Shown: positions 40,725 through 57,463 of the stretch, one piece after another
How positions within the stretch are numbered: position 1 is the stretch's first letter
Layout of the letters: every line of letters starts with the position of its first letter
Assembly (NCBI GenBank): GCA_031292255.1
Contig: JARLHN010000013.1
Location: 1-58,248 of the forward strand
Length of the DNA stretch: 58,248 bases
DNA from: Oryzomonas sp.
GTDB lineage: Bacteria > Desulfobacterota > Desulfuromonadia > Geobacterales > Pseudopelobacteraceae
Direction of reading: 5' to 3'
Notes under the pieces: model-generated
Database searches by the model: none
What the model was told of the DNA's origin: nothing
The model's input: the letters and a program-made list of their open reading frames with translations, nothing else
Position numbers and translations under genes: made by a program

Positions 40725-42554
40725 ATGTGCGGAATTGTAGGGTATATCGGCGGGCAAGAGGCAACGCCGGTCATACTGGATGGGCTCAAGAAGCTGGAGT
40801 ATCGCGGTTACGACTCGGCAGGCATCGCCACCCTGGCAGGCGGAGAAACGGGCATCAGGCGCAGTGAAGGCAAGTTGGTCAACCTGGAAAACCTGCTGCG
40901 CGAGCAGCCGCTTTCCGGCGTGATCGGCATTGGCCACACCCGCTGGGCAACTCACGGCAGGCCCTCGGAGATCAATGCCCATCCCCACAAGGCAGGCCCG
41001 ATCATCGTGGTGCATAACGGCATCATCGAGAACTACCTGCAACTCAGGGAACAGCTCAAACAGACCGGCCACATCTTCAAGAGCGAGACAGATACCGAGG
41101 TCATCTCCCATCTGGTCGAGGAAAAGCTCAAAGACGATCCCGACTTCCCACAGGCGGTCCGGCTGGCCCTGGCCGAGCTGCGGGGTGCCTATGCCGTCTG
41201 CATCCTCAACGAACACCAGCCGGGCATGCTGATCGCCGCCAAGCTGGGGTCCCCGATGGTGGTCGGTCTTGGAAACGGCGAATTTTTCGTTGCCTCGGAC
41301 ATCCCCGCCATCCTGGCCCATACACGGGAGATGGTCTTCATGGAGGATGGCGAAATGGTCGTGTTCCACGGGGGAACAGCCGCATTCTCCACCATCGCCG
41401 GCGTCCCGCTGGACAAAAAGGCGCGGCACATCGACTGGTCGCCGCTGATGGCAGAAAAGGGGGGCTACCGGCACTTCATGCTCAAGGAGATCCATGAACA
41501 GCCCCGTGCCGTGCGCGACACCATCGCCGGACGGCTCCTGGAGCAGGAAGGGGACGTGTACCTGGAGGACCTGAAGTTCAGCGACCGGCAACTGGCGGCC
41601 ATGAAGCGGATCGTCATCGTGGCCTGCGGCACATCCTGGCATGCCGCCCTGGTCGGCAAGTTTTACATCGAGGGATATTGCCGCATCCCTGTCGAGGTGG
41701 ATATCGCTTCGGAGTTCCGCTATCGCAACCCGGTCATCGACGAGCATACACTTGTGATGGTCATCTCCCAGTCGGGGGAGACCGCCGACACCCTGGCCGC
41801 CCTGAGAGAGGCCAAATCGCGCGGCGCCATGAACATGTCCATCTGCAACGTGCTGGATTCCTCCATTGCCCGGGAATCCGCCGGCGTGATTTACACCCAC
41901 GCCGGTCCCGAGATCGGAGTTGCCTCCACCAAGGCCTTTGTCACCCAGCTCACGGCACTGTACCTGTTCACCATCCGTTTGGGCCGGGCCATCTGCGCCA
42001 TCGATTCCGCAACGGGCCAGCACATGATCGCCTCCCTCAAAAAGGTTCCGGCCATGCTGGAGGAGGCCCTCAAGCTCAATGCCGATATCGAGAGGATTGC
42101 CCGCAAATACATGAACGCCCGCGACTTCCTCTACCTGGGGCGCGGTAAAAACTTCCCCATTGCCCTGGAGGGGGCGCTCAAGCTCAAGGAGATTTCCTAC
42201 ATCCATGCCGAGGGCTACCCGGCCGGCGAGATGAAGCACGGTCCCATTGCCCTGATCGACGAGGACATGCCGGTGGTCATGCTCGTGCCGCTCAACAACG
42301 CCTTTGAGAAGACCCTGTCCAACATGGAGGAGGTCATCGCCCGCAACGGCCGGGTGATTGCGCTCTGCAGCGAGGGGGATGAAGAGGTCAGGGGCCGGGC
42401 CGAGGACACCGTCGAGATTCCCCGTATCGACGAGGATCTGGACCCGTTCCTGCTCTCCGTGCCGCTGCAACTTCTGGCATATCACATTGCCGTGTTGAAG
42501 GGGACGGACGTGGATCAGCCGAGGAATTTGGCAAAATCGGTGACCGTGGAGTAG
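40725..42554 (+). CDS. glmS: Glucosamine-6-phosphate synthase
   Basis: A 609-residue enzyme that makes glucosamine 6-phosphate from fructose 6-phosphate and glutamine. Cys2 of [10 protein letters not shown] is the glutaminase nucleophile (after Met removal), followed by RGYDSAG and HTRWATHG. The C-terminal half has two SIS domains ([47 protein letters not shown]), with the end [18 protein letters not shown] precedes the ATG. The 3' coding end carries the conserved sequence recognised by TnsD-type proteins: the Tn7-like element begins 24 bases after the TAG. No glmS ribozyme is present. Confidence 0.98.
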
Positions 42555-42578
42555 GGACGGGGGCTGATGAATAATATT
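42520..42578 (+). other. attTn7 target site at the end of glmS
   Basis: The last codons of glmS ([12 protein letters not shown]-stop) plus 24 bases. TnsD is known to bind the conserved 3' end of glmS and to direct insertion 23-25 bp past the stop. The predicted target duplication is the 5 bases before the element's TGT terminus (ATATT, 42574-42578). The other copy was not found within the window. Confidence 0.8.
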
Positions 42579-42594
42579 TGTACGCAAAAAACAA

Positions 42595-42667
42595 TGTTGG
42601 CTACTAATAAAAAAAGTCGGCTACTGCAAAAATATGTCGGCTACTATAAAATAAAGTCGGCAACTAT
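42595..42667 (+). repeat. Four tandem 20-bp TnsB-site-like repeats (transposon right end)
   Basis: Units begin at 42595, 42615, 42635 and 42655, exactly 20 bp apart, with core [AT]GTYGGCWACT preceded by an A/T tract. The pattern AAAATA-GTCGGCAACT is close to the Tn7 TnsB site (AAAATAGTTGGGAACT). Close-packed sites next to glmS match the right end of Tn7, which has four overlapping TnsB sites. Confidence 0.85.
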
Positions 42668-42690
42668 CAGTTCAATAGCCGTCAATTACG

Positions 42691-42719
42691 AAGGGGCTTC
42701 AGCGAAAGCCCCTTTTTTT
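42691..42719 (+). terminator. Intrinsic terminator just inside the transposon
   Basis: GGGGCTT (42693-42699) pairs with AAGCCCC (42706-42712), followed by seven T. It faces glmS transcription and would stop read-through into the element. It also lies at the end of the minus-strand sigma operon. Confidence 0.85.
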
Positions 42720-42732
42720 CTTTAATACCCAA

Positions 42733-43509
42733 TCAGTCTTCCAGCATCTTTTCGTCTTCAAAAACCAACAGCGTAAGAATTTCTGAAGGTCCTACTCGGA
42801 AGGTTTGCTCCAATACCTCATATCGTTGTGCATCCCGATGATCGAACCATGCTTCCGCAGACACATATGTCATTTGTGATGTCGTTATAGACTTCTTGGT
42901 ATCAAAAAGAACATCCCTGGCCGAGCTTTCAGCCTGAAGGTCTTTCCTTGGGAACCACCTGTCGGGAATCATAGGGGAACGGGAAAACCAGCAACGGCCT
43001 TGTTGATTGTGGCAAATGATGAAAGCCGGAATATCCCCTGTCTCGACGCAACGGATAGCCGCCGCTGTCGTGCTAACGCCAAAATCATCCCCAAGTTTCC
43101 TGATGGCATCAAAATCGATTTGGCGATAGGTTCTCAGCGCGGGCAGGAACAGATACCTGGGCATCAGTAAGTTGACCGCATAGGTGTCAGCGTGTTTTTC
43201 TGCCGGCGAACCGTTACTTCTGAAGTTCTCGATTTCATCCGACCTGCAAACCATGACCTGACCGCGATGAAAATGCCAGTGCCCCAGTTCGTGGGCTAGC
43301 GAAAAACGTTGCCTCCCGAAGCTGCATTGATTGTTGACCGTCACAATAGCGGAGTCGCCGACCCCCAAAATCCTCGCCTCACAACCATCGAGGGACTGAA
43401 ACTTGACCGTCACGCCGCGAATCCAAGCAATGGCCTCAAGATCGATCTCCCCCGGTTCTGTTACGCCCAGCGACTGGAGAAGTTCTTCTGCTGGCGTGAG
43501 ACGCCTCAT
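42733..43509 (-). CDS. ImmA/IrrE family metallopeptidase
   Basis: A 258-residue protein. The zinc-protease motif is HELGHWHFHRG (about residues 74-84), in the context FSLAHELGHWHFH, and the third ligand is likely in EKHADTYAVNLLMPRYLF. This is the ImmA/IrrE (COG2856) family, known to cleave repressors or control regulator stability. The start overlaps the previous stop (ATGA), so it is the last gene of a three-gene minus-strand operon with the sigma factor. A role in releasing the sigma factor by cleaving the middle protein is inference. Lower GC than the core genes. Ends before the terminator at 42691. Confidence 0.85.
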   Translation of the reverse strand: MRRLTPAEELLQSLGVTEPGEIDLEAIAWIRGVTVKFQSLDGCEARILGVGDSAIVTVNNQCSFGRQRFSLAHELGHWHFHRGQVMVCRSDEIENFRSNGSPAEKHADTYAVNLLMPRYLFLPALRTYRQIDFDAIRKLGDDFGVSTTAAAIRCVETGDIPAFIICHNQQGRCWFSRSPMIPDRWFPRKDLQAESSARDVLFDTKKSITTSQMTYVSAEAWFDHRDAQRYEVLEQTFRVGPSEILTLLVFEDEKMLED

Positions 43510-43946
43510 TTGTTAGTCTCGGTATCAGCCTCCGGATCATAAATGCCAAGTTCCCGGAGATCTTCCAGCATGCTCAAGACATCAGAATCAGAAAGTTCTT
43601 TGCCTTTCCTGGCGGCAAGGGTGAACTCCTGAGTGGATTCCGGGTGCTTCTGCAAAATAGTTGCGAGCGTTCTTCTTGCTTGCAAGGGGTCTAGAGTGAT
43701 GACTTTCCCCTTCTGCGGTTCTTTTTTCTGTTGGGCAACAGCCAAGCGAGCCGCGGAGAGGCGCTTTTTGGCCGCCAGTGTTTGTGCGGTTTTCAATATC
43801 TCACGAACACGTGTAGCCTCTGCCTCTGGTGATCCGGAATCCTCCGCTGCTTCGGAAAGAATCTCTTTATCGGAAGTGTTCAAGATATCCTCAACAAGTG
43901 CATCTGTCAGATGGTCAAGCATATCTCGATGACTTTGCGTTCTCAT
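43506..43946 (-). CDS. Small acidic/charged protein, possible sigma-regulating partner
   Basis: A 146-residue protein with start MRTQSHRDMLDHL at 43946, giving an ATGA overlap with the sigma-factor stop; a longer start at 43955 is possible. It is mostly helical, with acidic N-terminal (VEDILNTSDKEILSEAAEDSG) and basic middle (QTLAAKKRLSAARLAVAQQKKEP) sections. No membrane segment, Cys motif or known domain. Sandwiched and translationally coupled between the sigma factor and the ImmA-type protease, it has the position expected of an anti-sigma factor or protease substrate. That is inference from context. Confidence 0.65.
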   Translation of the reverse strand: MRTQSHRDMLDHLTDALVEDILNTSDKEILSEAAEDSGSPEAEATRVREILKTAQTLAAKKRLSAARLAVAQQKKEPQKGKVITLDPLQARRTLATILQKHPESTQEFTLAARKGKELSDSDVLSMLEDLRELGIYDPEADTETNK

Positions 43947-44530
43947 AATTTCCACCCTTCCGGATATGCTTTGTCAATGCGCCGGCGCATAAGCCGCCGC
44001 TTCGAATTGTATGCTGTCCCGTCAAGGCCCGTCAGTTCGCGGAGTTCACTCGCATCCATCCCCTCCATGTTTCCTTCAACGATCAGCCGAGCATGTTCGT
44101 CATCGGCAAACAATGACAATATTGCCGTACGAATCGCCGCCGATTCTTCTTCTGAAATAAGCATCTGATCAGCATTGGGCACCTCAGTAGGCTTATCTAT
44201 ATCCACCGAGGTTTCGTCACAGTCATCGCCTGTTCTGGCGATCAAAAGAAGTTCGGGTGAGCGGGTATGCGATTTGAACAGGCTGGAAGCGAGACTCCTC
44301 ATAGTGCCTGCTAGGAAAGCAATCAAGCTAATTCCACGTGGGCAGTTTCTATTACCTTCGAGAGCGGCCTCAAATGTTTGCTGCAGAAGATCATCAGGAT
44401 CTATTCTGCCTAGACTATATCGCCTTGCGATACGGCCTAGACGTATCAAGTCCGCATCGGACAGCGATGAAAGGGCTTCATTCATCTCTTCCACAGACAG
44501 GACAGGTTTTTCAGGAGCAGGCGTCAGCAT
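43943..44530 (-). CDS. Sigma-70 (ECF-like) RNA polymerase sigma factor
   Basis: A 195-residue protein. The region-2-like helix set is RIARRYSLGRIDPDDLLQQTFEAALEG and CPRGISLIAFLAGTMRSLASS; a C-terminal helix-turn-helix (EGMDASELRELTGLDGTAYNSKRRLMRRRIDKAYPEG) resembles region 4. The start at 44530 is preferred because GGAG lies 6 bases upstream; the ATGs at 44536 and 44542 lack such a site. First gene of the minus-strand operon. It faces a divergent Ubl operon, and both have the same bipartite element upstream, so autoregulation and control of the Ubl operon are inferred. Confidence 0.75.
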   Translation of the reverse strand: MLTPAPEKPVLSVEEMNEALSSLSDADLIRLGRIARRYSLGRIDPDDLLQQTFEAALEGNRNCPRGISLIAFLAGTMRSLASSLFKSHTRSPELLLIARTGDDCDETSVDIDKPTEVPNADQMLISEEESAAIRTAILSLFADDEHARLIVEGNMEGMDASELRELTGLDGTAYNSKRRLMRRRIDKAYPEGWKL

Positions 44531-44560
44531 CCTCATCTCCATTGCCGTTTCTGATTAGTA

Positions 44561-44649
44561 ATGCTCCAAAACTATCATTTCTCGGACACAAAAAAAAGAT
44601 TTTATAAAAATTTACCATTGATGTCCGAGACCGCATTCGAGTGGAGCAT
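44561..44649. promoter_or_regulatory. Mirror-image divergent promoter pair
   Basis: Plus strand: TGTCCGAGA (44622-44630), N11, TGGAGCAT (44642-44649). Minus strand: the same two words, TGTCCGAGA (complement of 44580-44588) and TGGAGCAT (complement of 44561-44568), also separated by 11 bases. The copies are separated by 33 bases of AT-rich DNA. Layout and spacing resemble -35/-10 boxes of one sigma factor serving both operons. Confidence 0.75.
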
Positions 44650-44700
44650 CCATTAATAGAGCATACATGCGTTTAAACCTCATATGGGAAAGGAAAAATT

Positions 44701-44970
44701 ATGACCAACCATTCAGAACACGCCCCAGGACACCACAAGAAGACAATGATCATTGTAAACGGCCGGGAACGCGAATTTATCGGCCACAAGATCACTTATG
44801 AAGAAGCCGTCGCATTGGCCTTCCCAGGTGAGCAAACTGGCAGGGACACCACTGTTTATACCGTTGCCTATGCGAGCCACCACGGCAAAGATGGCACTCT
44901 CGTCGCGGGCCAGAGCGTTGAGGTCCATGAAGGGATGGTGTTCAATGTCACAAAGACCAATCGTTCTTGA
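44701..44970 (+). CDS. Ubiquitin-like protein, multiubiquitin family
   Basis: An 89-residue single beta-grasp protein: MIIVNGREREFIGHKITYEEAVALAFP, then TVYTVAYASHHGKDGTLVAGQSVEVHEGMVFNVTKTNRS. This matches the bacterial multiubiquitin family, here with a single domain. The C-terminus ends in KTNRS, not in the diglycine of eukaryotic ubiquitin. Ubls in related bacterial conjugation operons are thought to be joined to targets by the neighbouring E1/E2-like proteins; for this one that is inference. The ATG has AAAGGAAAAATT upstream. The 3' end overlaps the E1-like gene by 26 bases. The plus-strand copy of the mirror-image promoter lies 52-79 bases upstream. Confidence 0.85.
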   Translation: MTNHSEHAPGHHKKTMIIVNGREREFIGHKITYEEAVALAFPGEQTGRDTTVYTVAYASHHGKDGTLVAGQSVEVHEGMVFNVTKTNRS

Positions 44971-46141
44971 TGCCGATATAAGGAGACTTCAGGATGAGGG
45001 GTACGAGGTGGAGGTGCTTAATGGACACCTCCTGGTTCACTCAATCCCCTATGTGACCTCGCTGGCAGTGGTGTCCTATGGCATTGTGGTTACCGACCTG
45101 AACGGGACGATTGGAGAGTTGGGCCGGCCAAAGGATCATCAGGTTTGGTTCACAGGGGAATTTCCGTGCCACAGCACAGGAAAACCCATAGAAGCCCTGC
45201 GTCATTCCGGAGGCCAGACTTTGTGGACTGGTTTTGCGGTTCAGCATCGATTCTCAAATAAACCGGAGAGTGGATTCCCAGATTACTACTCCAAAATGAA
45301 GAGTTACATCACCATTATTTCTAACGAGGCCAAGGCTATTGATCCAACTGCGACGCCTTGCACATTTAAAGTCATCGTGCCGAGCGAAGAGGCGAACTCC
45401 GTCTTCAAGTACTATGATTCAGCATCAAGCCGGGCCAATATTATCGCTGTTTCCGAGAAGCTGGCCATGGAAAAGGTCGCGATTGTGGGACTCGGTGGCA
45501 CCGGCTCCTATGTCTTGGATTTGGTGGCCAAGACGAGGGTTAGAGAGATCCACCTTTTTGATGGTAAAATCTTTAATCAACACAACGCCTTCCGGGCGCC
45601 TGGGGCCGCCTCGGTTGAGACATTGGAAGCAAGGCCAGCCAAGGTCGATTATTATGCCGGGACGTATGGCGCGATGCGGCACGGGATTGTTCCTCATAGC
45701 GTCTTTATCAGCCAAGATAATGCCGAACTTCTGGCGGAGGTGGATTTCGTCTTTCTTTGCGTCGATACAGGCCTATCAAGGAAAGTGATCAGTACATTCC
45801 TGCGGGATAGGGATATCCCTTTTGTCGACGTTGGCATGGATTTACAGATGATATTCGAGGCTAATCAGCTTATTGGCACCTGTCGAACAACACTAGTCAC
45901 TCAGGGAAAGGCTGATCATTTTGATGACTATGCGCCCCAGGGTACGGATACCGACGAAGACCTCTATCGCAGCAACATCCAGGTGGCAGATATGAACGCT
46001 TTAAATGCGGCCCTTGCGGTTGTGAAGTGGAAACAGTTTTGCGAGTTCTATCGGGATCAATTCGAGGTCCATCATTCGACATTCTCCATTGATTCCCATT
46101 CTCTTACACGAGACGTGACGAATATAGGAGACTCCCATTGA
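44945..46141 (+). CDS. E2/E1-like fusion: DUF6791 domain plus ThiF-type adenylation domain
   Basis: A 398-residue protein. The N-terminal ~165 residues (VWFTGEFPCHSTGKPIEAL; FSNKPESGFPDYYSKMKSYI) match the DUF6791 region seen in Ubl-operon proteins, a likely E2-like module; Cys75 is a candidate acceptor but untested. The C-terminal part is a ThiF/E1 Rossmann domain with GLGGTGS at 182-188, HLFDGKIFNQHNAFRAPGA, and DFVFLCVDTGLSRKVISTFL. The start at 44945 (MSQRPIVLDAD) is chosen over a longer frame that would read back through the Ubl gene. No clear zinc Cys set. It overlaps the upstream Ubl and the downstream DUF6527 gene. Confidence 0.85.
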   Translation: MSQRPIVLDADIRRLQDEGYEVEVLNGHLLVHSIPYVTSLAVVSYGIVVTDLNGTIGELGRPKDHQVWFTGEFPCHSTGKPIEALRHSGGQTLWTGFAVQHRFSNKPESGFPDYYSKMKSYITIISNEAKAIDPTATPCTFKVIVPSEEANSVFKYYDSASSRANIIAVSEKLAMEKVAIVGLGGTGSYVLDLVAKTRVREIHLFDGKIFNQHNAFRAPGAASVETLEARPAKVDYYAGTYGAMRHGIVPHSVFISQDNAELLAEVDFVFLCVDTGLSRKVISTFLRDRDIPFVDVGMDLQMIFEANQLIGTCRTTLVTQGKADHFDDYAPQGTDTDEDLYRSNIQVADMNALNAALAVVKWKQFCEFYRDQFEVHHSTFSIDSHSLTRDVTNIGDSH

Positions 46142-46566
46142 AGCGTCCAAAACTATCTTCGATCAGTCCTCGGTTTGTTGGAGTCATTCCAGACCAACTG
46201 GAGGAAGGGGTTCTCTATATCTGCGAACGTTATGGTACAGCGATCCATAAGTGCTGTTGCGGATGTGGAGAAGAGGTCGTTACGCCTCTCTCTCCCGCCG
46301 ACTGGGCTATCCGCGTGATTGGTGAAACTATTACACTCAGCCCCTCTATTGGCAACTGGAGCTTCGCTTGTCGCTCTCACTATCTCATCAAAAACAATCA
46401 AGTGATTTGGGCTGGAACGCTAACGCCAGGGCAAATTGAGCAGGTTAAGGCCCAAGACAGGTCTGATAAGGAATTATACATAGCTGCCGTCAACTCACAA
46501 AAATGTAAGGAGAATAGTATTTGGTCAAAGCTGGTCAGCTTTTTCAAAAAATTATTGTCGTTTTAA
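46138..46566 (+). CDS. DUF6527 family protein of Ubl operons
   Basis: A 142-residue protein starting at a TTG (46138) that overlaps the E1-like stop; ATAGGAG lies about 8 bases upstream and supports this start. Two metal-like clusters are seen: HKCCCGCGEEV (about residues 37-47) and CRSHYLIKNNQVIWAG (about 77-92), with TLSPSIGNW between them. This pattern is typical of DUF6527, repeatedly adjacent to multiubiquitin/ThiF genes and proposed to be a peptidase or zinc protein. A function in processing or removing the Ubl is inference. It ends in a basic, hydrophobic tail (SIWSKLVSFFKKLLSF). Last gene of the operon. Confidence 0.8.
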   Translation: MKRPKLSSISPRFVGVIPDQLEEGVLYICERYGTAIHKCCCGCGEEVVTPLSPADWAIRVIGETITLSPSIGNWSFACRSHYLIKNNQVIWAGTLTPGQIEQVKAQDRSDKELYIAAVNSQKCKENSIWSKLVSFFKKLLSF

Positions 46567-46628
46567 TCGACTGTAGGGCACCCAATTTTATTAGGCCCGC
46601 CAAACTAATACGACAGGAGGTGAAGGGC

Positions 46629-46801
46629 ATGGCCACAAATCCCCCACAGGTGACGGCCACAGGAACGGGGCCGTCAGAGACAGATCCCAGGTTTTCAACC
46701 CGGTGAACGAGCGATGGACGAAACGCGATACCGAAACCGGCAAGTTCATGGATCAGAAAGCCGACAAGGAGCCGTTCAAGTGCGTCCGCAAGGAGAAGTG
46801 A
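46629..46801 (+). pseudogene. Small conserved basic protein gene with apparent 1-base frameshift
   Basis: A very good ribosome binding site (AGGAGGTGAAGGGC) precedes an ATG at 46629, but that frame gives only MATNPPQVTATGTG and stops at 46705. A different frame from about codon 3 gives a coherent basic peptide: KSPTGDGHRNGAV, then RDRSQVFNPVNERWTKR, then DTETGKFMDQKADKEPFK, ending at TGA 46799-46801. Adding one A after ATGGCCA would restore a 57-residue protein. It resembles small conserved proteins with the TGDGHRxGAV start, recalled without a search. Either a real one-base deletion or a sequence error. Alternatively only a 32-residue product from GTG 46703 is made. It lies just before tnsA. 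Confidence 0.6.
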
Positions 46802-46861
46802 GAGAGCTGGGGCTCCCCACAAAGGAGCCCTTCTCCTCTGCATATCTGGAGGTAAGGTAAT

Positions 46862-47689
46862 ATGCCGCGACGGAAAACTAGCACTGCAGCCAACAAGCTG
46901 AAAAAAGGGCGCGGCCAGGGCCACGGCCAGAGCTACACCCCTTTCCTCTACACACGCGAGGTGCCTTCCCTTGGGAAGGCGAGCCGTATCAAAGGATGGA
47001 AGACCGGGAGGGTTCACCATTTCCTTTCTACTCTTGAGAGCGACTACTTCTACGCTCTTGAGTGGTTCCCGGTCATCACCGACATACGCGAACAGTTCCC
47101 CCTCCCCTTGGATGCCACCCAAAAGATAGCCGAACGCCTCTCCATCTGGCACCATCAAGACCCCAAGAACAAAGAGCCGTGTGACGTCACCACGGATTTC
47201 CTGATCGACGTCGAGATTGACGGCAACCACCACCTGATCGCCCGCACCGTCAAGCCTTCAAGCGATTTGAATAATTCGCGGATTATCGAGAAATTTGAGA
47301 TAGAACGCACTTACTGGCATGAACAGGGTGTTGACTGGGGCATCGTCACGGAACGGGAAATCCCCAAGGCTTTGGCGCGAAACGTCGAATGGGTCCATTC
47401 CGCACTCGACCCGGCTGAGGCTCCCGGGATCAAGTCTGGTTACATTCCCTTTATCGAGAGCGCGCTGTTCGAAGAACTCGCCAATAACCCTTCAGCCTCT
47501 GTCGCCCAGGTCGGCATGGAAATCGACAGTCGCTTGGGGCTGAGGGGAGGCACAGCCCTATGGGTCGTGAAGCATCTCATAGCGAGCCGGCAATGGGAAG
47601 TGGACATGATGACGAGGATAGAACCCCATCAACCCTTGGCGGTGGTTCGTGCCGGAGTGGCGACGACGCTGGAGAGGATGCGCCAATGA
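46862..47689 (+). CDS. tnsA: TnsA endonuclease of Tn7-like transposase
   Basis: A 275-residue protein (Tn7 TnsA 273). It cuts the 5' ends of the transposon as part of the heteromeric transposase. Candidate catalytic residues in the PD-(D/E)xK-like fold are Glu59 (FLSTLES), Asp112 (TTDFLID) and Lys131 (ARTVKP). Their spacing is close to Tn7 (Glu63, Asp114, Lys132), and the family segment VITDIREQFPL follows the Glu. The C-terminal part (DSRLGLRGGTALWVVKHLIASRQW) is the TnsB/C-contacting domain. GGAGG is 8 bases from the ATG. The stop overlaps the tnsB start (ATGA). Confidence 0.95.
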   Translation: MPRRKTSTAANKLKKGRGQGHGQSYTPFLYTREVPSLGKASRIKGWKTGRVHHFLSTLESDYFYALEWFPVITDIREQFPLPLDATQKIAERLSIWHHQDPKNKEPCDVTTDFLIDVEIDGNHHLIARTVKPSSDLNNSRIIEKFEIERTYWHEQGVDWGIVTEREIPKALARNVEWVHSALDPAEAPGIKSGYIPFIESALFEELANNPSASVAQVGMEIDSRLGLRGGTALWVVKHLIASRQWEVDMMTRIEPHQPLAVVRAGVATTLERMRQ

Positions 47690-49896
47690 TCAATATCGTA
47701 GTCAACATGATAATCGAATGGTTGGACGCCGAAACGGAGAAACCGCTGCTGGAGCGGGTGCTCTGGATAGATCCCCATGGCGAAGCCATCTTCGTGATAT
47801 CCATCAACGACCCTAAATCACTTCCACTCTTGCGTACTCGCTCCGAAATCGAGTCGGCATTACAACAAGAGATTGCAACACCCCGTACGGTTGATCCTTA
47901 TTCTGCCCTTGCCGCTCCAAGCCAACAAATCCCAGCCAATCACCTGAAAGTGAGGGACAGGGTGTGGGACAGAATACGGGGCCTCGTCAGCCAAGAACCT
48001 GAGATTTATTTCGAAGAGCGACGTAAGCAGCTGATCATGAATGACCCTGTGGCTTCCAAGGGGGCGGTGGACAAGGTTTATAATTGCCTGCGCAAGTATT
48101 GGAAACGAGGGATGATCAAGAATGCCCTCCTGCCCGACTACGCCAACAGCGGCGCCCCGGGGAAACAGCGTGGGATAAGGGAGGGAAGGAAGCGCGGCCG
48201 TAAGCCGAAAGTGGTTCTGGTCAACCCGGAGTTCATCGGAGTCAATGTGGATGACGGCATCCGACGCATCTTCAACATCGCGTTCAAGCGCTACTACAAC
48301 TCCAGAAAGAAGAACCCACTGAAGCGTGCTTATGACGAGATGGTCCGGAAACACTTCAATCTCGGACACCGCAACCAAAATGGACGTGACATACCTGTCA
48401 CTCCGCCCGCCCACCTGGTGCCAACACTTGGGCAATTCGTCTACTGGTACCACCGCCAGAAAAATCTCGTCCATTCCATCGTGTCCCGCGAGGGGCGCCG
48501 TGCCTACGAACTCCGCCACCGGCCAGTGCTCGGTGACTCCACCCAGGCGGCCTTCGGACCTGGCTCCATTTACCAGATTGACGCCACGGTCGCAGACATC
48601 TACCTCGTAAGCCAGCTTGACCGCATCAGGATCATTGGCCGGCCAGTCATCTATTTCTGCATAGACGTGTTCTCCCGGCTGTGCGTTGGGCTGTACGTGG
48701 GCCTTGAGGGGCCCAGTTGGCTCACCGGCATGATGGCGCTGGCCAACACCACCGCCGACAAAGTCGGTTTCTGCGCCGAATTCGGCATCGAGATTTCCGC
48801 CGAGGACTGGCCGGGCGGTCTGCTCCCGGAGCAGATCACCGCCGACCGTGGCGAGTTCATCGGCATCTCGTCGGACCAATTGGTAGATGGTCTTAACATC
48901 ACCTTCACGAATTGCCCGCCGTTCAGGGGCGACCTGAAGGGGATCGTGGAACAGTACTTCCGCCGGGCGAACGATACGTGCGTCAAGTGGATACCCGGAG
49001 CGGTCAGGAAGAGGGAGCAGGGCGAGCCGGACTACCGTCTGGACGCCACCCTCACCATAAGCGAGTTCACCAGGACTCTGATCCTTATGGTGATCGAGTA
49101 CAACCTGTTCCACCGTATCGACGATTACCCAATGGGCAAGGACATGATGGGCGACGGAGTCGAGCCGGTACCGATCGACCTTTGGAATTGGGGGATAGTC
49201 AACAGATCGGGCCACCTGCGCGAGAGATCGCCGGACGCCGTCAAGCTGGCCCTTCTGCCCCGTGATTCCGCCACCATCACCCTGAAGGGCATCCGCTTCA
49301 ACGGGATGTTCTACATTTGCGAGCGGGCCATCAGGGAGCAATGGTTCGTGAAGGCCAGGCACTCGGGAAACTGGGTCATGGAGGCGTCATACGACCCTCG
49401 AAAGCCGGAGGTCATCTATCTCAACCCCGGCAACGGGGTTCTCGAACCCTGCCAACTGCTTCCGCGCGACGAGCGGTTCAAGGACTTTCGCATCGAGGAG
49501 ATACTCGAATACCAGGAGGTCCAGAAACAGAATTCCGCGCTGCATAAGTCGGTCAGGATGCAAAGCCGTGGGGAACTGTCGGCCGTCGTGGAAGCGGAGG
49601 TCGGCGAGGCCCTTGCGCGTACAGAGGAAGCCAAGGCGCGACAGGCGGGCGTGAGCGATAATGCCCGCCTCAAGGGCATCCGAAAGAACCGCCAGGATGA
49701 GAAAGAGCGCATTCGCGAGGAAGAGGCCTGGGACATGAGGGCGGATGGTGGGTGGCGTGATGGTCAGGGTCCCGCAGAGGTCGTGACACTCCCCGTGGAG
49801 GATGCGCTTGATGCCGCCGAATCCCTCACTGCGTCAAAACGGAAGAGGTTTCTGGAGGCAATTGAACGCTCAGAGAATGAGGAGGGCAACGCATGA
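47686..49896 (+). CDS. tnsB: TnsB DDE transposase
   Basis: A 736-residue integrase-type transposase (Tn7 TnsB 702). It binds the terminal repeats and joins 3' ends to the target. The start at 47686 overlaps the tnsA stop. The DDE triad is Asp299 (QIDATVADIY), Asp387 (ITADRGEF) and Glu422 (KGIVEQYFR). The distances 88 and 35 equal those of Tn7 TnsB. N-terminal helix-turn-helix-like regions (residues 120-240, with RKRGRKPKV) should bind the repeats at 42595-42667. A Mu-type beta-barrel and a charged C-terminal tail follow. The frame begins earlier at 47560 in principle but overlaps tnsA and lacks a ribosome binding site there. Confidence 0.95.
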   Translation: MINIVVNMIIEWLDAETEKPLLERVLWIDPHGEAIFVISINDPKSLPLLRTRSEIESALQQEIATPRTVDPYSALAAPSQQIPANHLKVRDRVWDRIRGLVSQEPEIYFEERRKQLIMNDPVASKGAVDKVYNCLRKYWKRGMIKNALLPDYANSGAPGKQRGIREGRKRGRKPKVVLVNPEFIGVNVDDGIRRIFNIAFKRYYNSRKKNPLKRAYDEMVRKHFNLGHRNQNGRDIPVTPPAHLVPTLGQFVYWYHRQKNLVHSIVSREGRRAYELRHRPVLGDSTQAAFGPGSIYQIDATVADIYLVSQLDRIRIIGRPVIYFCIDVFSRLCVGLYVGLEGPSWLTGMMALANTTADKVGFCAEFGIEISAEDWPGGLLPEQITADRGEFIGISSDQLVDGLNITFTNCPPFRGDLKGIVEQYFRRANDTCVKWIPGAVRKREQGEPDYRLDATLTISEFTRTLILMVIEYNLFHRIDDYPMGKDMMGDGVEPVPIDLWNWGIVNRSGHLRERSPDAVKLALLPRDSATITLKGIRFNGMFYICERAIREQWFVKARHSGNWVMEASYDPRKPEVIYLNPGNGVLEPCQLLPRDERFKDFRIEEILEYQEVQKQNSALHKSVRMQSRGELSAVVEAEVGEALARTEEAKARQAGVSDNARLKGIRKNRQDEKERIREEEAWDMRADGGWRDGQGPAEVVTLPVEDALDAAESLTASKRKRFLEAIERSENEEGNA

Positions 49897-51614
49897 GCCA
49901 GGATGTCTATCGAAACAAACGCCTTCTGGTTGGAGAAAGGTGTGCGGCGGCCTACTGCGAGAGTGACGAACCACTCTATAGGCACAACTGCTACATCGAA
50001 GCGTTGCCACCACCTCGCACCCCTGAGAAAACCTCCTCACTGGTCGGCAGGTATCCGGTCTATGACCCCAAGGAGCGAACTCTGCCGACATTGCGGCGCC
50101 TTGAGGCGGTTTACCGCATAGCGAAGTGCGTATTCCCCATGCCGGACTTCCTGGCGCTTGAGCAAAAGATCTCTCGCATGATCAGGAACGGGTATTTCGC
50201 CCGCAACCCCTTGGATGTGGAGTGGCGTCGCCAGTTGAACGCTGGCTTCCCTGATTCGTTCAAATCAGTCGGTGATAGCGAACCGATACCATTGATGCGT
50301 TCCTCAGCCGCCAGCATCGCCATCATAGGTCTGAGCGGGGTTGGCAAATCAACTTCGGTGGAGAGCATACTGGGCACGTACCCCCAGGTCATAGTCCACA
50401 CGGAATACAACGGCACGCCGTTCGATCAGCACCAGCTTGTGTGGCTCAAGCTCGAATGCCCGTTCGACGGGTCGCTGAAAGGACTTTGCATGTGTTTCTT
50501 CGAAGCGCTCGACTCGATCCTGGGGACCCGCTATGCGGTTGAGTACTGCGGCAACCGCCAAAAGAGCACCGTCAACAACCTGTTGCCTGTCATGGCAAGG
50601 CTGGCGGCAGAGTTCGGCATCGGGGTCCTGGTGATCGACGAGATCCAGCGGCTCAACGAGGCGCACAGTGGTGGGTCACAGAACATGCTGAACTTCTTCG
50701 TCGAGCTCACGAACACGTTTGGGGTGCCCATCGTTCTAATCGGTACTTTCAAGGCGTTCAGCCTCTTCACCAGCGATTTCGCCATGGCGCGCCGGGTCGC
50801 GGGCCAGGGTGACGTGATCATCTCCAATCTCCAGAAGGATATCTATTGGAACCACTTCCTTGAGAAGCTCTGGAAATATCAGTGGACGAACGTGCCGACC
50901 GAACTCTCCAAAAAATTGAACGACATCATGTACTCGGAGTCACAGGGTATCGTCGACATCGCGGTTAAACTCTACATGCTGGCGCAATGGAGCGTGATCG
51001 GCGAGGAGGATGAGCGCCTCACACCAGCCAGGATCAGGGAGGTGGCCCGGGATAATTTCCATGCGGTGCGGCCTATGCTGCAAGCCTTGCGCTTGAATGA
51101 TCCTGATGCCCTCGCCAAGATCAGCGACGTGATCCCGCAGGCGGAGCACCTTGACAAGTTTCTCACCTTGTCCACAAAGCGGGTGATGCTCTCCGGAACA
51201 GTCGACAAACTCGCCAACCAGGATCAGCCAGGACTCACGGACATGGTGGAGCGCATGGAGTCTCCTGTGAGCCAGATTGAGGCGATGCTAATCGCCGCTG
51301 GTCACCCAGTTTCCCTGGCACAAGAATGGGCTCGCCAAGCGGTTCAGCGCCACGCCAATTCAACCGACCTGAGGACAGCCACCAGTGAGGCGTTCAGAAT
51401 CGCTGCCGAACACCTTTTACAGGAGCAAGGAGCGGTACAACAACCCAACCCCATGATCAAAACTACTAAAAAGCCAAAGCCTGTTCCCTTGAGCGGGGAT
51501 TTGAGGGAGATTGTCAAGGTGGCCCTGAAGAAGAAGGAGCCGGCATACGACGCTCTGAAGGCCGCCGATGTCATAAAGCCCGCCACGGAATTTCTTAAGC
51601 TGGCGGAGGCGTGA
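49893..51614 (+). CDS. tnsC: TnsC AAA+ regulator of transposition
   Basis: A 573-residue ATPase (Tn7 TnsC 555) that links target selection (TnsD or TnsE) to the TnsAB transposase. Walker A is GLSGVGKST at 146-154, Walker B is VLVIDE at 245-250. The sensor region GVPIVLIGTFKAFSLF follows. The N-terminal ~130 residues resemble the TnsD-interacting part; the C-terminal extension (after about 430) is charged and probably contacts TnsA. The ATG overlaps the tnsB stop (ATGA). ATP-bound filaments and target immunity are known for the family, not shown here. Confidence 0.95.
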   Translation: MSQDVYRNKRLLVGERCAAAYCESDEPLYRHNCYIEALPPPRTPEKTSSLVGRYPVYDPKERTLPTLRRLEAVYRIAKCVFPMPDFLALEQKISRMIRNGYFARNPLDVEWRRQLNAGFPDSFKSVGDSEPIPLMRSSAASIAIIGLSGVGKSTSVESILGTYPQVIVHTEYNGTPFDQHQLVWLKLECPFDGSLKGLCMCFFEALDSILGTRYAVEYCGNRQKSTVNNLLPVMARLAAEFGIGVLVIDEIQRLNEAHSGGSQNMLNFFVELTNTFGVPIVLIGTFKAFSLFTSDFAMARRVAGQGDVIISNLQKDIYWNHFLEKLWKYQWTNVPTELSKKLNDIMYSESQGIVDIAVKLYMLAQWSVIGEEDERLTPARIREVARDNFHAVRPMLQALRLNDPDALAKISDVIPQAEHLDKFLTLSTKRVMLSGTVDKLANQDQPGLTDMVERMESPVSQIEAMLIAAGHPVSLAQEWARQAVQRHANSTDLRTATSEAFRIAAEHLLQEQGAVQQPNPMIKTTKKPKPVPLSGDLREIVKVALKKKEPAYDALKAADVIKPATEFLKLAEA

Positions 51615-51615
51615 C

Positions 51616-53190
51616 ATGCTCCCGTTTTTCCCCAGCCCATACCCCGATGAGTTGTTCTCTGGGATATGCTCCCGCTACCATCAGAGAAGCGGGCATACGA
51701 GCATTGGGGAGACATTACGTGACCTCTTCGATAACAGGCTGGCGACCGTCACGACGGATTTCCCGATGAACATACGCTTGGTGTCTGAGAAGCTCTCCCC
51801 GGCCAGCAAAAATACTCTGCCCCATCTGATCAATGCCCATACGCTGCTGCCGCTGTATCTCCCGTTTCTCCCCGAGAGCCGGGCCGCTAAAATAATCGAT
51901 CTAATGACCCGCAAGACCACTGTCGGTAATTTCCACATGACCATCGGCGCCACAGCGAGCGCCATCCGCTCCATCGCCTTCCTTCGCTATTGTCCGGCAT
52001 GCCTGCGCGATGATCGGATGAGTCGCGGGGAGCCATATTGGCACCGCAGCCATCAGGTGCCAGGCGTGGATGTGTGCCACCTGCATCAGGGCCGGTTGGT
52101 CGCCTCCACCGCGGCCGCCCATGGGGTCGGCAGCAAGCACGACCTGATTCCGTTGTCCGGCATTGCCGAAACCTGCGGCTCATCATCGGATGGACTCCAT
52201 GGGCTCAGCCATCACGCATGGCTGGCCAGGTCCGCTCATTGGCTTCTGAACGTGACGCCTCCGATACAACCACAAGGCCTCGAACGGCTGCGCCACGGTT
52301 ATCTGCTCCATTTGCGGCGGATCGGCCTGGCGGGCGCGTCATGGCGGCTGGAGTGGCATGAACTCATCAGGCAGTTTCTTGATTTTTACGGTCTTGAGTT
52401 CCTTGACGAGGTTCATAGCCCGCTCGCCTTGGGTAGTTCAGACAACTGGCTGCTGTCCATGCTGCACAAGCCCAGGAAGGCGTCCCACCCCTTGCGGCAT
52501 TTTCTGATTATCAGGTTCCTAGACCTCGAGGTCGAGGAATTTTTCCATCGAGCTGCTGAGTTGGAGAATAGGCCCGGGTGGTATTCAAAAACTGTCAAGT
52601 GGCGCCTTGGCGATGCAGACACTGGTGATAGCAAGACGGACACCAAATCACTTGAGGAACACTCGCTTTATTCCCGTCGCGAGAGTTGGCTACGAGCATG
52701 CGCATTTAATCCGGTTGCCGGCGTGAGAGGCCTGCGTCGAATTTATGGCGCCGACTACTCCTGGCTTTACCGCCATGACAGGGAGTGGCTGCGCTCGCAT
52801 TCGCCGCATAAGCCTCACCCCTCCAACAAGGTGAGGGTGGACTGGGACGAGCGTGACGCCTCGCTCGCGTCTCAGGTCATTGCCGTTGCAGCAGAGATCA
52901 AGAACAGCCAGGGGCGGCCCATACAAGTCACCGTGCGAGCCATCGGCATACGCCTTGGGGCCACGGCCTTGTTCGAAAAACTGATGGCCCACCTGCCAAG
53001 GACCGGGACCGCTTTGGCAACGGTCGTGGAATCCAGGGATGAGTTCGCGAGCCGTCGACTTCGGTTGGCGGCCGAGAGGCTTGGGCGGCAGGGCGAGCCT
53101 GTTCGTGCCTGGGAGCTCGTCAGGGCGGCCGGGCTCCGGCCGGAGTGCGTCACCCGTCTGGCTGAGGAAATAGGAAGGCTGGTGGCTTGA
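51616..53190 (+). CDS. tnsD: TnsD target selector (TniQ family)
   Basis: A 524-residue protein (Tn7 TnsD 508), long enough for a true TnsD rather than a short TniQ. The N-terminus MLPFFPSPYPDELFSGICSRYHQRSGHTS is the TniQ signature. A zinc finger follows: RYCPACLRDD with HQVPGVDVCHLHQ (residues about 135-165). The C-terminal ~250 residues contain the DNA-binding helices that recognise the glmS end. The element's insertion 24 bp after glmS shows this target is used. It starts 2 bases after the tnsC stop. Key context: tnsE follows, so both targeting routes are encoded. Confidence 0.93.
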   Translation: MLPFFPSPYPDELFSGICSRYHQRSGHTSIGETLRDLFDNRLATVTTDFPMNIRLVSEKLSPASKNTLPHLINAHTLLPLYLPFLPESRAAKIIDLMTRKTTVGNFHMTIGATASAIRSIAFLRYCPACLRDDRMSRGEPYWHRSHQVPGVDVCHLHQGRLVASTAAAHGVGSKHDLIPLSGIAETCGSSSDGLHGLSHHAWLARSAHWLLNVTPPIQPQGLERLRHGYLLHLRRIGLAGASWRLEWHELIRQFLDFYGLEFLDEVHSPLALGSSDNWLLSMLHKPRKASHPLRHFLIIRFLDLEVEEFFHRAAELENRPGWYSKTVKWRLGDADTGDSKTDTKSLEEHSLYSRRESWLRACAFNPVAGVRGLRRIYGADYSWLYRHDREWLRSHSPHKPHPSNKVRVDWDERDASLASQVIAVAAEIKNSQGRPIQVTVRAIGIRLGATALFEKLMAHLPRTGTALATVVESRDEFASRRLRLAAERLGRQGEPVRAWELVRAAGLRPECVTRLAEEIGRLVA

Positions 53191-53220
53191 CCAGCCGATA
53201 TTATCGCTTCTGGAGGGAGA

Positions 53221-54879
53221 ATGAACCTCAAGCTCGGATCTTGGCCATTCCCGGCCGGCATGCCGGCTCATCTTTGTTGGGTGAAGTCACCGAGGCAGGT
53301 CGGAAGGGATAAGCAGTGGCAGCAGAAGGTGCTGTTTCAGGGGCAGAACGGTATGTTCCATGAGCGCATGCTGCCATGGGGGGTGGTTCCCGCCCTGAAG
53401 CTCGGTGTTCAATTCGTGAATGGCGAGGTATCTGGGAGGTCTTCCGCCGGCGATGTGAAGGTTTTCAGGCTGGGCGATACCGCCACGTGCCGTTTCACGT
53501 CGAGCGACTACCTGAGAAACGAGTGGCTGGACAGGGTGCGGGAGTACCAGAGACAGCTGTTGGTTGAGCACTGCGTCTGCATCGAGGATGGCGAGACCAG
53601 ACTGTGGATGCCGTGTATCGAGGTCGCCAGGGCGTTCTTCGCAATAAACAAGCAGTTGGCCTATCTTCTGCTGGATCCCATGGGGTTGTCGAAGATATGC
53701 TCATCCGAATTGGAGGGTGGCAAAGTGCGGGTACATTTCAACAAGGAGATGCCGGTGGCCTCGATCAACAAACTACTTGCCGCCCGCGTGGCCACGATCC
53801 GGCACCATGCCCCATGGGATGGCGCCTGGCGGCAGGTCTGGAACCGCTCAATCAAGAACCCCGGCGAGCCGACAGTGTATTCGCAGTTGTATTGCTGTCC
53901 ACCGACAGTCAATGGTTCGACCTGGTCTGTCCGGGGTATCCAATGTGAAAACGGTTTCTTTGTGTTGGAGATCCGTGGGATCCGGACCCAAGCTAAGCTA
54001 CCTTTCGACGAGGTGGCCTACACCCATCCCCATCTAACCTTCTCGCCTGATGGCGGGGAATCTGCTGAGGCTTGCGATGGAAGTGGGAGTGGTGGTGGCT
54101 CAAGGGAAGAGCACAGTGATGACGGCGAGATAGATTCGGGCACATTGCCGCCAAAGAGATCGCGCAATCCCCTTCACGGCCCCATGGCGGTCTCCTTCAT
54201 GGAGTTCGGCAATGGCGTTAAGGTGTTGAGGCATTGTGGTGAGGGCTGGCCGAAACCGCGAAGGAGCAAAGTGCCTGAAGGCGGTGAAGGAGGAGAAGTG
54301 GAAGTAACCGCGACTAAATTGAAAGGGCCTGTGCGGGTTTCCCTGAATGACGATGGGGGGCTGGGAGAGATCCTGGCGGCCGAGTTCAAGCCCATTGAAG
54401 AGCTTGTGGACGTGCCACCTGGATTGAAGTCTTTCATCACTGCCGTCAAAGGGATGAAGAAAGTGAAGGTGGCGTGCACCATAAAGGCTGTTCCAGATGA
54501 GTCACCACTGGCGAAACTTCATGATGGCCAACGGCATTTCGTGTTGGTGCATGTGCGAGCGTTTGGGCGGTGGCCGGGGAAGGGGTACGTGCTGGAGATC
54601 GATTCATCGGATGGCCATAGGGTATCCACGTTGGTCTTTCTGCCTAAAGGTGATTTTCACGCCCTGGATACGGCCAATAAAATGTTGAAAGAATGCTTTG
54701 CCAAGGGGAGATATTGGACTTCGGATACCATCAAAAATGAAGAGACCGTGTTGAAGTATGAGCTGGTAAGGCATAGATTGCTTGAGCCGGTTCACTGGGG
54801 TGGCCGGTTACGTTCAAAGATAAACTTGTTGGATGGGGATATACCTGAAAATGCACGAATCAGTTTGATGGATCAATGA
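53221..54879 (+). CDS. tnsE: TnsE-like target selector
   Basis: A 552-residue protein (Tn7 TnsE 538), positioned after tnsD with a GGAGGGAGA site. Alignment by eye with Tn7 TnsE is weak but collinear. It shares a segment like WMPCIEVARAFFAINKQLAYLLL (TnsE has IPQLELARSLFLIN), SVRGIQC-VLEIRGI (TnsE HVKGR-VEEIVGLEI), and a Gly/Ser/acidic linker (about 280-330). A C-terminal domain (VHVRAFGRWPGKGYVLEIDSSDGHRVSTLVF) resembles TnsE VLLEVDASDGVKMLSTKVL. Known: TnsE directs insertion into discontinuously replicated DNA such as conjugating plasmids. The TnsE call is moderately strong and should be confirmed by structural comparison. Confidence 0.8.
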   Translation: MNLKLGSWPFPAGMPAHLCWVKSPRQVGRDKQWQQKVLFQGQNGMFHERMLPWGVVPALKLGVQFVNGEVSGRSSAGDVKVFRLGDTATCRFTSSDYLRNEWLDRVREYQRQLLVEHCVCIEDGETRLWMPCIEVARAFFAINKQLAYLLLDPMGLSKICSSELEGGKVRVHFNKEMPVASINKLLAARVATIRHHAPWDGAWRQVWNRSIKNPGEPTVYSQLYCCPPTVNGSTWSVRGIQCENGFFVLEIRGIRTQAKLPFDEVAYTHPHLTFSPDGGESAEACDGSGSGGGSREEHSDDGEIDSGTLPPKRSRNPLHGPMAVSFMEFGNGVKVLRHCGEGWPKPRRSKVPEGGEGGEVEVTATKLKGPVRVSLNDDGGLGEILAAEFKPIEELVDVPPGLKSFITAVKGMKKVKVACTIKAVPDESPLAKLHDGQRHFVLVHVRAFGRWPGKGYVLEIDSSDGHRVSTLVFLPKGDFHALDTANKMLKECFAKGRYWTSDTIKNEETVLKYELVRHRLLEPVHWGGRLRSKINLLDGDIPENARISLMDQ

Positions 54880-55022
54880 ACGTAATGCAAATGACAAAAT
54901 GTCATATGATCCATGAATGGTCTTGATTTCAAGATGCCTCGTCGGTATATTTGGCCGACTTTAGCGGACTTTGACTAATTCAGCGTTCACTTGAGATATT
55001 TTATGGTAATTACGGGGGCGGC
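54880..55022. other. Intergenic region with one TnsB-site-like word
   Basis: 143 bases. GTCGGTATATTTGGCCGAC (54939-54957) is a partial palindrome, and TTGGCCGACTTTA reads like a single TnsB core in inverted orientation relative to the right end. Only one copy is seen and no TGT/ACA terminus is near. A weak promoter for the next gene may also lie here. Confidence 0.4.
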
Positions 55023-55793
55023 ATGTCTATTTCAGGTTATAGTGAATTCGAGGTTGACATTGAAAGAGTGTTGAGGGAGCAGTTGCCGATATTTTTTGAG
55101 GATATTAGCCCAGCGGCATTGACTCTGGAAAATATCGAAAAACTTCCTCCGGAAGGTAAGGGTGCTTACCTCCTGCTATATGACGATCTGCCCGTGTACG
55201 CGGGTAAGACTGATTACAGGCATGGATTCAAATCTCGGCTTAATCGTCACTTCAAGTCGGTACAGGATCGTAGGAATCTGGACCCTTTGAAAGTGTCTTT
55301 CAAAGCGGTCAGGATATTCGTGTTCTCCGCATTGGATGTTGAGAGCATCGTCATTGAGGAGCTAAGAAAGATAAACAAAGATTGGCTTAAATGGAATTTC
55401 TCAGGATTCGGGTCGAATGACCCGGGGCGTAAACGGGAAGGGCAAGAGCCGGCTAAGTTTGATGTGGACTACCCTATAGACGTAATGAAGTCGCTCCCGT
55501 ACATCTCTAAAGGAAGCTACCTGGTCGCTGAGGTCTTGACAATCCTGAAAGATAACTTGCCTTATCTCTTACGGTGGCAGAGCAAGCCGAAGGGCCGTTC
55601 AGGTCATGACGATTTTCATGAAACTCATGTGGAGTTCCATGAAAACGGGATGACTGTATTGGGGGTAATGAAGTCGATTGTGGACGCATTGCCTGGGAAT
55701 ACATGGCAAGCGACCGTGTTCCCGGGAAGGATAATCCTGTATAAGGCAACAAAGGACTATGAGTTTACACAACATATCATAAAGAAGAGTTAG
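55023..55793 (+). CDS. Eco29kI-like GIY-YIG restriction endonuclease
   Basis: A 256-residue protein. The GIY-YIG core is GAYLLLYD (47-54) with VYAGKT (58-63), followed by Arg72-x3-His76 (SRLNRHF), Glu113 (EELRKI) and Asn125 (WNFSGFGSNDPG). The GFGxxDPG segment and the later Asp/Pro-rich VDYPIDV match the Eco29kI group, which cuts CCGCGG. Spacing of the Arg-His and Glu-Asn pairs follows that group as I recall it. It is longer than Eco29kI (about 214 residues) at the C-terminus. It is convergent to vsr and the methyltransferase, so it is the restriction partner. The actual target is inferred only from family. Confidence 0.75.
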   Translation: MSISGYSEFEVDIERVLREQLPIFFEDISPAALTLENIEKLPPEGKGAYLLLYDDLPVYAGKTDYRHGFKSRLNRHFKSVQDRRNLDPLKVSFKAVRIFVFSALDVESIVIEELRKINKDWLKWNFSGFGSNDPGRKREGQEPAKFDVDYPIDVMKSLPYISKGSYLVAEVLTILKDNLPYLLRWQSKPKGRSGHDDFHETHVEFHENGMTVLGVMKSIVDALPGNTWQATVFPGRIILYKATKDYEFTQHIIKKS

Positions 55794-55828
55794 TTGCCTG
55801 ACAGTATTGATGAAGGGAAGTCATCTTG

Positions 55829-56263: not shown

Positions 56264-56287
56264 GTCCGAACTTGGCCTGAATGCTGA

Positions 56288-57451: not shown

Positions 57452-57463
57452 GGCGACAACCTC

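Follow-up and report, generated by a model that had tools for sequence, protein, structure and literature searches.

Bub pathways employ oxyester chemistry, with BubB acting as the E2 and BubD as a JAB deconjugase fused to the E1, and their operons combine a multiubiquitin-type ubiquitin-like protein (Ubl) with a BubC-like E1 under CapP-type control. The same combination is found in the 58,248-nucleotide stretch of Oryzomonas sp. analyzed here (contig JARLHN010000013.1, assembly GCA_031292255.1, contig 37 of a 44-contig genome; the whole stretch is hereafter termed the window), in which a six-gene module at 42733..46566 lies within a Tn7-like element inserted after glmS; in contrast to Bub, the module lacks a separate E2 and any match to JAB (0 of the 11 loci encoding a DUF6791-type E1), and its Ubl ends in Ser, not Gly. 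This Ubl half is of a known kind, operon type 6e, and is a sister of Bub, forming a branch in which neither JAB nor a separate E2 was found. It shares with the type 6e operons, as presented in the available text of Iyer, Burroughs and Aravind (2006; PMC1779556), a Ubl family of one to three repeats with a sporadic distribution, an E1-like protein fused to JAB or, in a subset, to another N-terminal domain, and a Cx3C zinc-finger protein; the window differs in its single Ubl domain and in the absence of the E2/RWD protein and of JAB. The Ubl, the E1 with an unrelated N-terminal domain and the Cx3C zinc protein that characterize the non-JAB variant in that text are all present in the window, and a regulator of type 6e operons is not described in the same text.

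Damage-triggered repressor systems that control antiviral operons, namely CapW, CapH-CapP and CapK-CapS, are covered by the accessible part of PMC13373217, in which CapW or CapH plus CapP is reported at 219 of 544 Bub operons, and CapK plus CapS next to Bub, CBASS and YegP genes. The three genes that face the Ubl operon in the window, hereafter the trio, encode a CapP-type peptidase, a small protein of 149 amino acids (149-aa) and a sigma-like protein. Like CapH-CapP, the trio contains a CapP peptidase with an intact zinc site and lies beside immune operons, including CBASS and Pycsar, but its small partner shows no clear helix-turn-helix (HTH), a sigma-like gene is added, and bipartite divergent promoter-like elements are present. 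CapK-CapS and CapW also act on Bub and CBASS operons as modular controllers that respond to damage, using kinase/STAS and WYL proteins, whereas the trio uses a sigma-like protein, a small protein and a peptidase (PMC13373217, accessible part). In the trio, CapP control takes a new form; a sigma version was not found among the open-licence papers searched, and a sigma-linked CapP is not described in the accessible part of PMC13373217. If true, a sigma-factor version would follow a different logic from that of the repressors, with self-amplification, and its promoter would be readable, so that the targets of the switch could be found by sequence; it would also make it possible to test directly when multiubiquitin operons, which are poorly understood, are expressed.

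Genes of the module and the proposed switch

All six reading frames are present at 42733-46566, and adjacent genes overlap within both operons. The features of the module are as follows:

42733..43509, minus strand: CapP-type M78 (ImmA/IrrE) metallopeptidase (Pfam M78, 1.5e-15; PADLOC capP, 3e-63; PDB 7t5t 'CapP', 3.5e-11)
43506..43955, minus strand: 149-aa protein, proposed anti-sigma protein and CapP substrate (open reading frame, ORF; predicted all-helical)
43943..44542, minus strand: sigma-70/ECF-like protein with a putative region 2 and, likely, region 4 (Pfam Sigma70_r2, 1.1e-4, just under the cut-off)
44561..44588, minus strand: promoter-like element toward the sigma operon, TGTCCG-N18-GCAT (upstream-region comparison)
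44622..44649, plus strand: the same promoter-like element toward the Ubl operon (upstream-region comparison)
44701..44970, plus strand: single-domain multiubiquitin-family Ubl (Multi_ubiq, 6.5e-14; PDB 9cd2, multi-ubiquitin protein, 7.5e-7)
44945..46141, plus strand: DUF6791-ThiF protein, E1-type adenylating enzyme with DUF6791 at its N-terminus, likely ATG at 44945 (DUF6791, 1.4e-51; ThiF, 1.5e-11)
46138..46566, plus strand: DUF6527 protein (Pfam DUF6527, 1.4e-24)

Read from the right end of the element, the gene order is capP, the small gene and the sigma gene on the minus strand, a 158-bp gap, the Ubl, DUF6791-ThiF and DUF6527 genes on the plus strand, and tnsA to tnsE. A preliminary description of this DNA had placed an overlapping Ubl/E1-like/DUF6527 operon opposite a three-gene operon, with which both the frames and the Pfam families agree; the gene that it called ImmA does belong to the M78 (ImmA/IrrE) family and is refined to a CapP-type peptidase by the PADLOC and PDB matches. 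Computation established which genes are present, the conservation and modularity of the trio, the conservation of the divergent bipartite elements, the intact catalytic residues and the Tn7 position, and the observation is real and goes beyond chance.

The locus is read, with somewhat more confidence than doubt, as a mobile module for ubiquitin-like conjugation that is switched on by damage. At rest, the dedicated sigma factor would be kept inactive by the 149-aa protein. Single-stranded DNA (ssDNA) arising from DNA damage or phage attack would be bound by CapP, which would become active and cleave the 149-aa protein, thereby freeing the sigma factor to direct RNA polymerase to the two matching divergent promoters; the output would be amplification of the sigma factor's own operon and activation of the Ubl-E1-DUF6527 genes. 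The E1 would then adenylate the C-terminus of the Ubl, and the Ubl would be attached to target proteins; DUF6791 most likely takes the role of the missing E2, and the zinc-binding DUF6527 protein probably selects the targets. Within this scheme, we infer small-protein cleavage, anti-sigma action, Ubl conjugation and a role in defence or stress; a sigma/anti-sigma pair with CapP as the ssDNA-triggered protease is the most economical reading.

The window CapP carries an HELGH zinc site, Cys88 located 11 residues downstream and Glu104, and the zinc ligands and Cys88 are invariant in 13 of 13 CapP proteins; a cysteine switch is a feature of CapP. Since the 'ImmA' gene is CapP-type, the expected trigger would be ssDNA or DNA damage, and ssDNA sensing by the window CapP is suggested by its homology to CapP. 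The small protein is predicted to be all-helical, with one 36-residue helix (pLDDT 85.6, pTM 0.47); A114-A115-R116, which is invariant in 66 small-protein sequences, is placed by the model in a loop that would suit cleavage.

Conservation of the trio, its promoter-like elements and its targets

The scan covered one genome per species (84,980 species), its query being an alignment of 13 trio-locus CapP proteins; the best 80 of the 411 relatives, ranked by similarity to the window CapP, were analyzed. The small-protein and sigma genes adjoin capP, as judged by profile, in 77 of these 80 closest loci (contig ends truncate L045, L086 and L093), a proportion that describes close relatives and not all 411, because the query was built from trio loci and the ranking gives preference to the subfamily of the window CapP. 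The sigma match is fragmentary in three loci (L060, L085 and L092). Frames overlap between the sigma and small-protein genes in 75 of 77 loci and between the small-protein gene and capP in 71 of 78, and the whole trio is present in 15 of 20 plasmid loci that were found by the sigma or small protein and opened. Among 395 genomes of the phylum, 19, the own genome included, contain CapP matches at E<=1e-10; two of the 18 others were opened, one of which (L148) contains a distant trio.

The two promoter-like elements of the window share the full form TGTCCGAGA-N11-TGGAGCAT, and the underlying motif emerged when the upstream region of each of 91 loci was compared with its reverse complement. In the 81 non-redundant loci, TGTCCG-N16-18-GC[AC]T occurs on both strands in 42, only toward the sigma gene in 11, only away from it in 8 and on neither strand in 20; at least one copy is thus present in 61 of 81, a count to which the loci from which the motif was derived contribute most. 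Across 50 shuffled sets, both copies were never found in one locus, an average of 0.6 of 81 loci per set had one, and the remaining 1.16 Mb of the same loci contains 32 matches, which corresponds to 0.012 expected per 430-bp region. Because the motif came from the scored loci, a small held-out set was tested: of four held-out plasmid loci, at least one copy was found in three (both in L192, one each in L193 and L195, the latter at an unusual distance, and none in L194), and the motif was not found in the held-out L148. The clade with diverged sigma proteins (L148, L183 and L184) instead shows TGGC[AG]AA...CGGCA at the same place, pointing both ways in L148 and L184, a pattern that was found by reading these same three loci; a sigma-promoter pair would be expected to show such a joint change of promoter and sigma, and this is an observation, not a test. 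A loose form of the promoter pattern yields 22 matches in the own genome versus 6 for a reversed control, so a wider regulon is not claimed; of the 22, the two module sites alone have the full form.

The operons facing the trio in these 81 loci comprise 12 Ubl/E1, 10 CBASS, 9 other E1/JAB (L036 by a weak match), 2 Pycsar (PADLOC PycC, ~1e-230) and 2 Beta_protein operons, and 20 loci face only small DUF2188/DUF3892-type ORFs, the labels being based on similarity to the window and to annotated plasmid-locus genes, with a few set by hand. Small ORFs of the DUF2188, DUF3892 or 92-aa type face the trio in L004, L009, L010, L040, L041, L047, L058 and others, and recall the YegP genes next to CapK-CapS. 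These 20 loci, together with the suggestion in the accessible part of PMC13373217 that Bub operons may mediate more global stress responses, favour an alternative in which the trio serves stress regulation and the Ubl operon encodes a general or stress-related modifier, not an antiviral one; the CBASS and Pycsar genes among the targets and the location of the window and plasmid loci on mobile DNA argue against it, and it is considered doubtful. The broader proposal of a widespread mobile immune sigma switch, in which a dedicated sigma/anti-sigma pair is linked to an ssDNA-activated protease, with its own promoter code, interchangeable antiviral operons (Ubl conjugation, CBASS, Pycsar) and, in one lineage, a docking slot between the Tn7 right end and tnsA, is judged to be evenly balanced. 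The idea that the ImmA-type genes are cargo unrelated to the Ubl genes was rejected on the grounds of the 12 loci in which the trio faces a Ubl operon. Separately, the divergent operon of one trio locus (L096:3668-5638) has a weak BilD match (2.4e-11).

Several results weigh against the damage-switched conjugation module, in addition to the choice of close relatives and the derivation of the motif noted above. Phage protection is not reported for Bub operons in the accessible part of PMC13373217. The trio faces a Ubl operon in only 12 of the 81 loci, and nothing was assigned in 26; the motif is missing in 20, of which 3 carry another form (class B). The sigma family matches Pfam Sigma70_r2 weakly (7 of 14 members at E<=0.1), and the window protein matches TIGR02937 over residues 36-173 at 2e-4, below the cut-off. 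Among the 20 opened plasmid loci, sigma relatives occur with no CapP match in L012, L014, L015, L017 and L195, and the other genome of the phylum that was opened contains a more distant CapP relative (L149:6341-7219) beside which no sigma or small-protein match was found. A Foldseek search with the small-protein model gave no significant match, and the anti-sigma role is therefore proposed from gene order. Finally, PADLOC capH matches 36 of the 66 small proteins weakly, including that of the window (1.7e-5 over most of the profile), and MCM_C, a winged-HTH family, matches 6 of the 66 (best 0.02); a CapH-like, DNA-binding role of the small protein is possible on account of these matches.

These same capH and MCM_C matches, together with the presence of CapH plus CapP or CapW beside Bub operons, underlie the main rival, according to which the 149-aa protein is a diverged CapH that represses the divergent promoters and is cleaved by CapP on ssDNA, the sigma-like protein being auxiliary. 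This CapH-CapP variant is regarded as unlikely: no Pfam family, HTH or other, reaches significance for the 66 small proteins among the 25 of 54 families listed, the long helix of the predicted helical protein does not favour it, the conserved DNA is bipartite, oriented toward each gene and spaced like a sigma promoter, and the sigma gene is kept in 77 of the 80 loci. As a separate observation, the second gene is shorter in L014, L015 and L017, in which the operon faces rRNA adenine methyltransferase or S8 peptidase genes.

The Ubl-E1-DUF6527 operon

The preliminary description had recognized an E2/E1-like fusion, of which the E1 half is established and the E2 label for DUF6791 is not. With residues numbered from a reference frame at 44939-46141, which starts two codons before the likely ATG at 44945, the nucleotide-binding and catalytic residues G184, G186, G189, D208, N216, R219, K235 and D276 of the E1 are invariant in 9 of 9 sequences. 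The best fold match is Citrobacter BubCD (3.7e-15; TM 0.46, rmsd 17), which is also closest by sequence, the sequence match being confined to the E1 part. E1-driven tagging would follow from these families. The window Ubl terminates in ...TKTNRS (tail at 44941-44970) and has no terminal Gly; in Ubls of the DUF6791 type the ending is near-fixed as ...T(N/S)RS or similar, with a terminal Ser in 7 of 7, and elsewhere the Ubl ends in TEG (L077, the JAB form) or ten residues past TEG (L021).

The 11 DUF6791 loci all contain a DUF6527 match, and 10 contain a Ubl match (L151 begins at the E1), but neither a separate E2 (4-sequence E2 profile, E<=1e-3) nor JAB (5-sequence JAB profile) was matched in any of the 11. 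The trio locus with the JAB form, L077, encodes a Ubl, Prok-E2_E, JAB-ThiF (by Pfam) and a DUF6527-like protein; in the branch of the window, DUF6791 replaces JAB. The predicted order of elements in DUF6791 is a helix, four strands, a loop with P76-C77, short strands and a long helix (mean pLDDT 79.7 over 9 sequences), which resembles an E2 fold. Cys77 is present in 8 of 9 sequences (Tyr in L048); no Cys is invariant, and Cys77 and Cys274 are the only two found in 6 or more of the 9. Alignment of DUF6791 with Prok-E2_E by hhalign gave E=0.017 but a probability of 2.7, versus E=0.38 for JAB and 0.57 for an unrelated profile; this result is suggestive, and E2-likeness is treated as a lead. DUF6791 itself may be E2-like, and an E2/E1 fusion is plausible though weakly supported. 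Cys39, Cys43, Cys78 and His81 of DUF6527, which are invariant in 8 of 8 sequences, probably form a zinc site. A branch without JAB or a separate E2 raises the question of how a ubiquitin-like tag is attached with so few proteins.

The same six genes were found in L147 (from another genome of the same taxonomic order), L026, L048 and L081, which bears out the co-occurrence expected of a module; no match to the tns proteins of the window (E<=1e-3) was found in these four stretches (12.6-16.8 kb). The module is present in the same-order genome G055 and in record CALMBF010000041.1, and among 57 related genomes a full-length DUF6791-E1 match was found only in the own genome and G055. The earlier picture of a self-contained six-gene module holds insofar as the six genes recur together elsewhere, but neither half is exclusive to the other: the neighbour of the Ubl operon is a WYL protein in L018 and, in L019, an XRE protein that weakly matches the CapP profile. 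In viral contigs, a single E1 query gave no match, an alignment query gave 6 loci, and a further viral query returned its own contig only.

Position within the Tn7-like element

Tn7-like transposons with defence cargo, as described in the available text of PMC8649781 and PMC11406308, share with the element in the window a TnsABCD core, 20-bp site arrays, insertion after glmS and cargo of a defence type; the window differs in that its cargo sits between the right end and tnsA, a position that is not described in the available text of either source. The features outside the module are as follows:

40725..42554, plus strand: glmS, target gene of the Tn7-like element (ORF; the orthologues before the right end in L184 and L186 have 74% identity)
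42568..42665, no strand assigned: Tn7-like right end, four TnsB-site-like repeats with 20-bp spacing (TGT terminus near 42579)
46620..46805, plus strand: small-ORF remnant before tnsA (open in L183 and L184; in the window, its start and the conserved remainder are in different frames)
46862..54879, plus strand: tnsA, tnsB, tnsC, tnsD (TniQ) and tnsE-like core (ORFs, Pfam)
L183:1519-3389 and L184:7707-11757: diverged sigma/small/CapP trio before tnsA (profile comparison)

The TnsABCD core, the TnsB-site array and insertion after glmS are all found in the window. Strong Pfam matches identify tnsA and tnsD/TniQ, matches below the curated cut-offs identify tnsB (Mu-transpos_C) and tnsE (TnsE_C), and tnsC, for which a profile search gave no useful match, was assigned by position and length. 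The right end was searched with a 16-base pattern derived from the four repeats, allowing 3 mismatches, and 5 matches were obtained in the window, 4 of them within 42568-42665, against 0.54 expected; the TGT terminus, read from the sequence, lies ~25 bp 3′ of the glmS stop. No repeat array of the same site type was found directly 5′ of tnsA in the window, and no left end of the transposon was recognized in the contig. With tnsA located 4,266 bp from the first right-end site and the six genes in between, the array at glmS confirms the earlier proposal that cargo splits the right end from tnsA.

Relatives of tnsA at E<=1e-20 were found in 13 of 117 genomes of the order, the own genome included, and the 7 closest other tnsA loci (L183-L189) were compared. 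The distance from the array to tnsA is 4,829 bp in L184, 927 bp in L186 and 176 bp in L189; the right-end array was not found in the stretches covered for L183, L185, L187 and L188, the contig of L183 starting 3,951 bp before tnsA, so that its right end is out of view. In both L183 and L184, whose tnsA is closest to that of the window (64-65% identity), a CapP gene (33-34% identity) lies before tnsA, adjoined by a small gene and a sigma-like gene that form a diverged trio: their families align with those of the window with hhalign probabilities of 98.2% for sigma and 97.3% for the small protein, versus 0.1% and 2.7% in cross controls. The five remaining tnsA stretches (L185-L189) gave no capP match. 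The sigma gene lies opposite small ORFs and tnsA in L183 and L184, and beyond the trio in L184 lie genes for DUF2188, a 231-aa protein and a Schlafen/AlbA-like protein. The trio before tnsA in L183, L184 and the window, three elements of which one has its right end out of view, suggests that the right-end side is a shared cargo place in this Tn7 branch; the cargo position in the window is unusual and appears to be common to its relatives. Such a slot would be a place where defence cargo is exchanged.

A second, independent insertion of the module between glmS and an older Tn7 would accord with its G+C content (49.6%, against 57.3% for the tns genes and 58.8% for the left flank) and with L147, which has the same six genes and no tns genes in the stretch covered. 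This origin is nevertheless highly improbable, given that the TnsB-site array lies outside the module, beside glmS, with none beside tnsA, that in L184 the diverged trio lies between the array and tnsA, and that the trio of L183 also precedes tnsA.

Other features of the element include left-side cargo at 54880-57700, which encodes a Vsr endonuclease, a cytosine methyltransferase and a protein that weakly matches a type II restriction enzyme, and, at the contig end (57871-58248), a frame that by eye resembles orfA of an IS3-type transposase. Just inside the right end, at 42690-42722, a G+C-rich hairpin followed by a T run was noted by eye.

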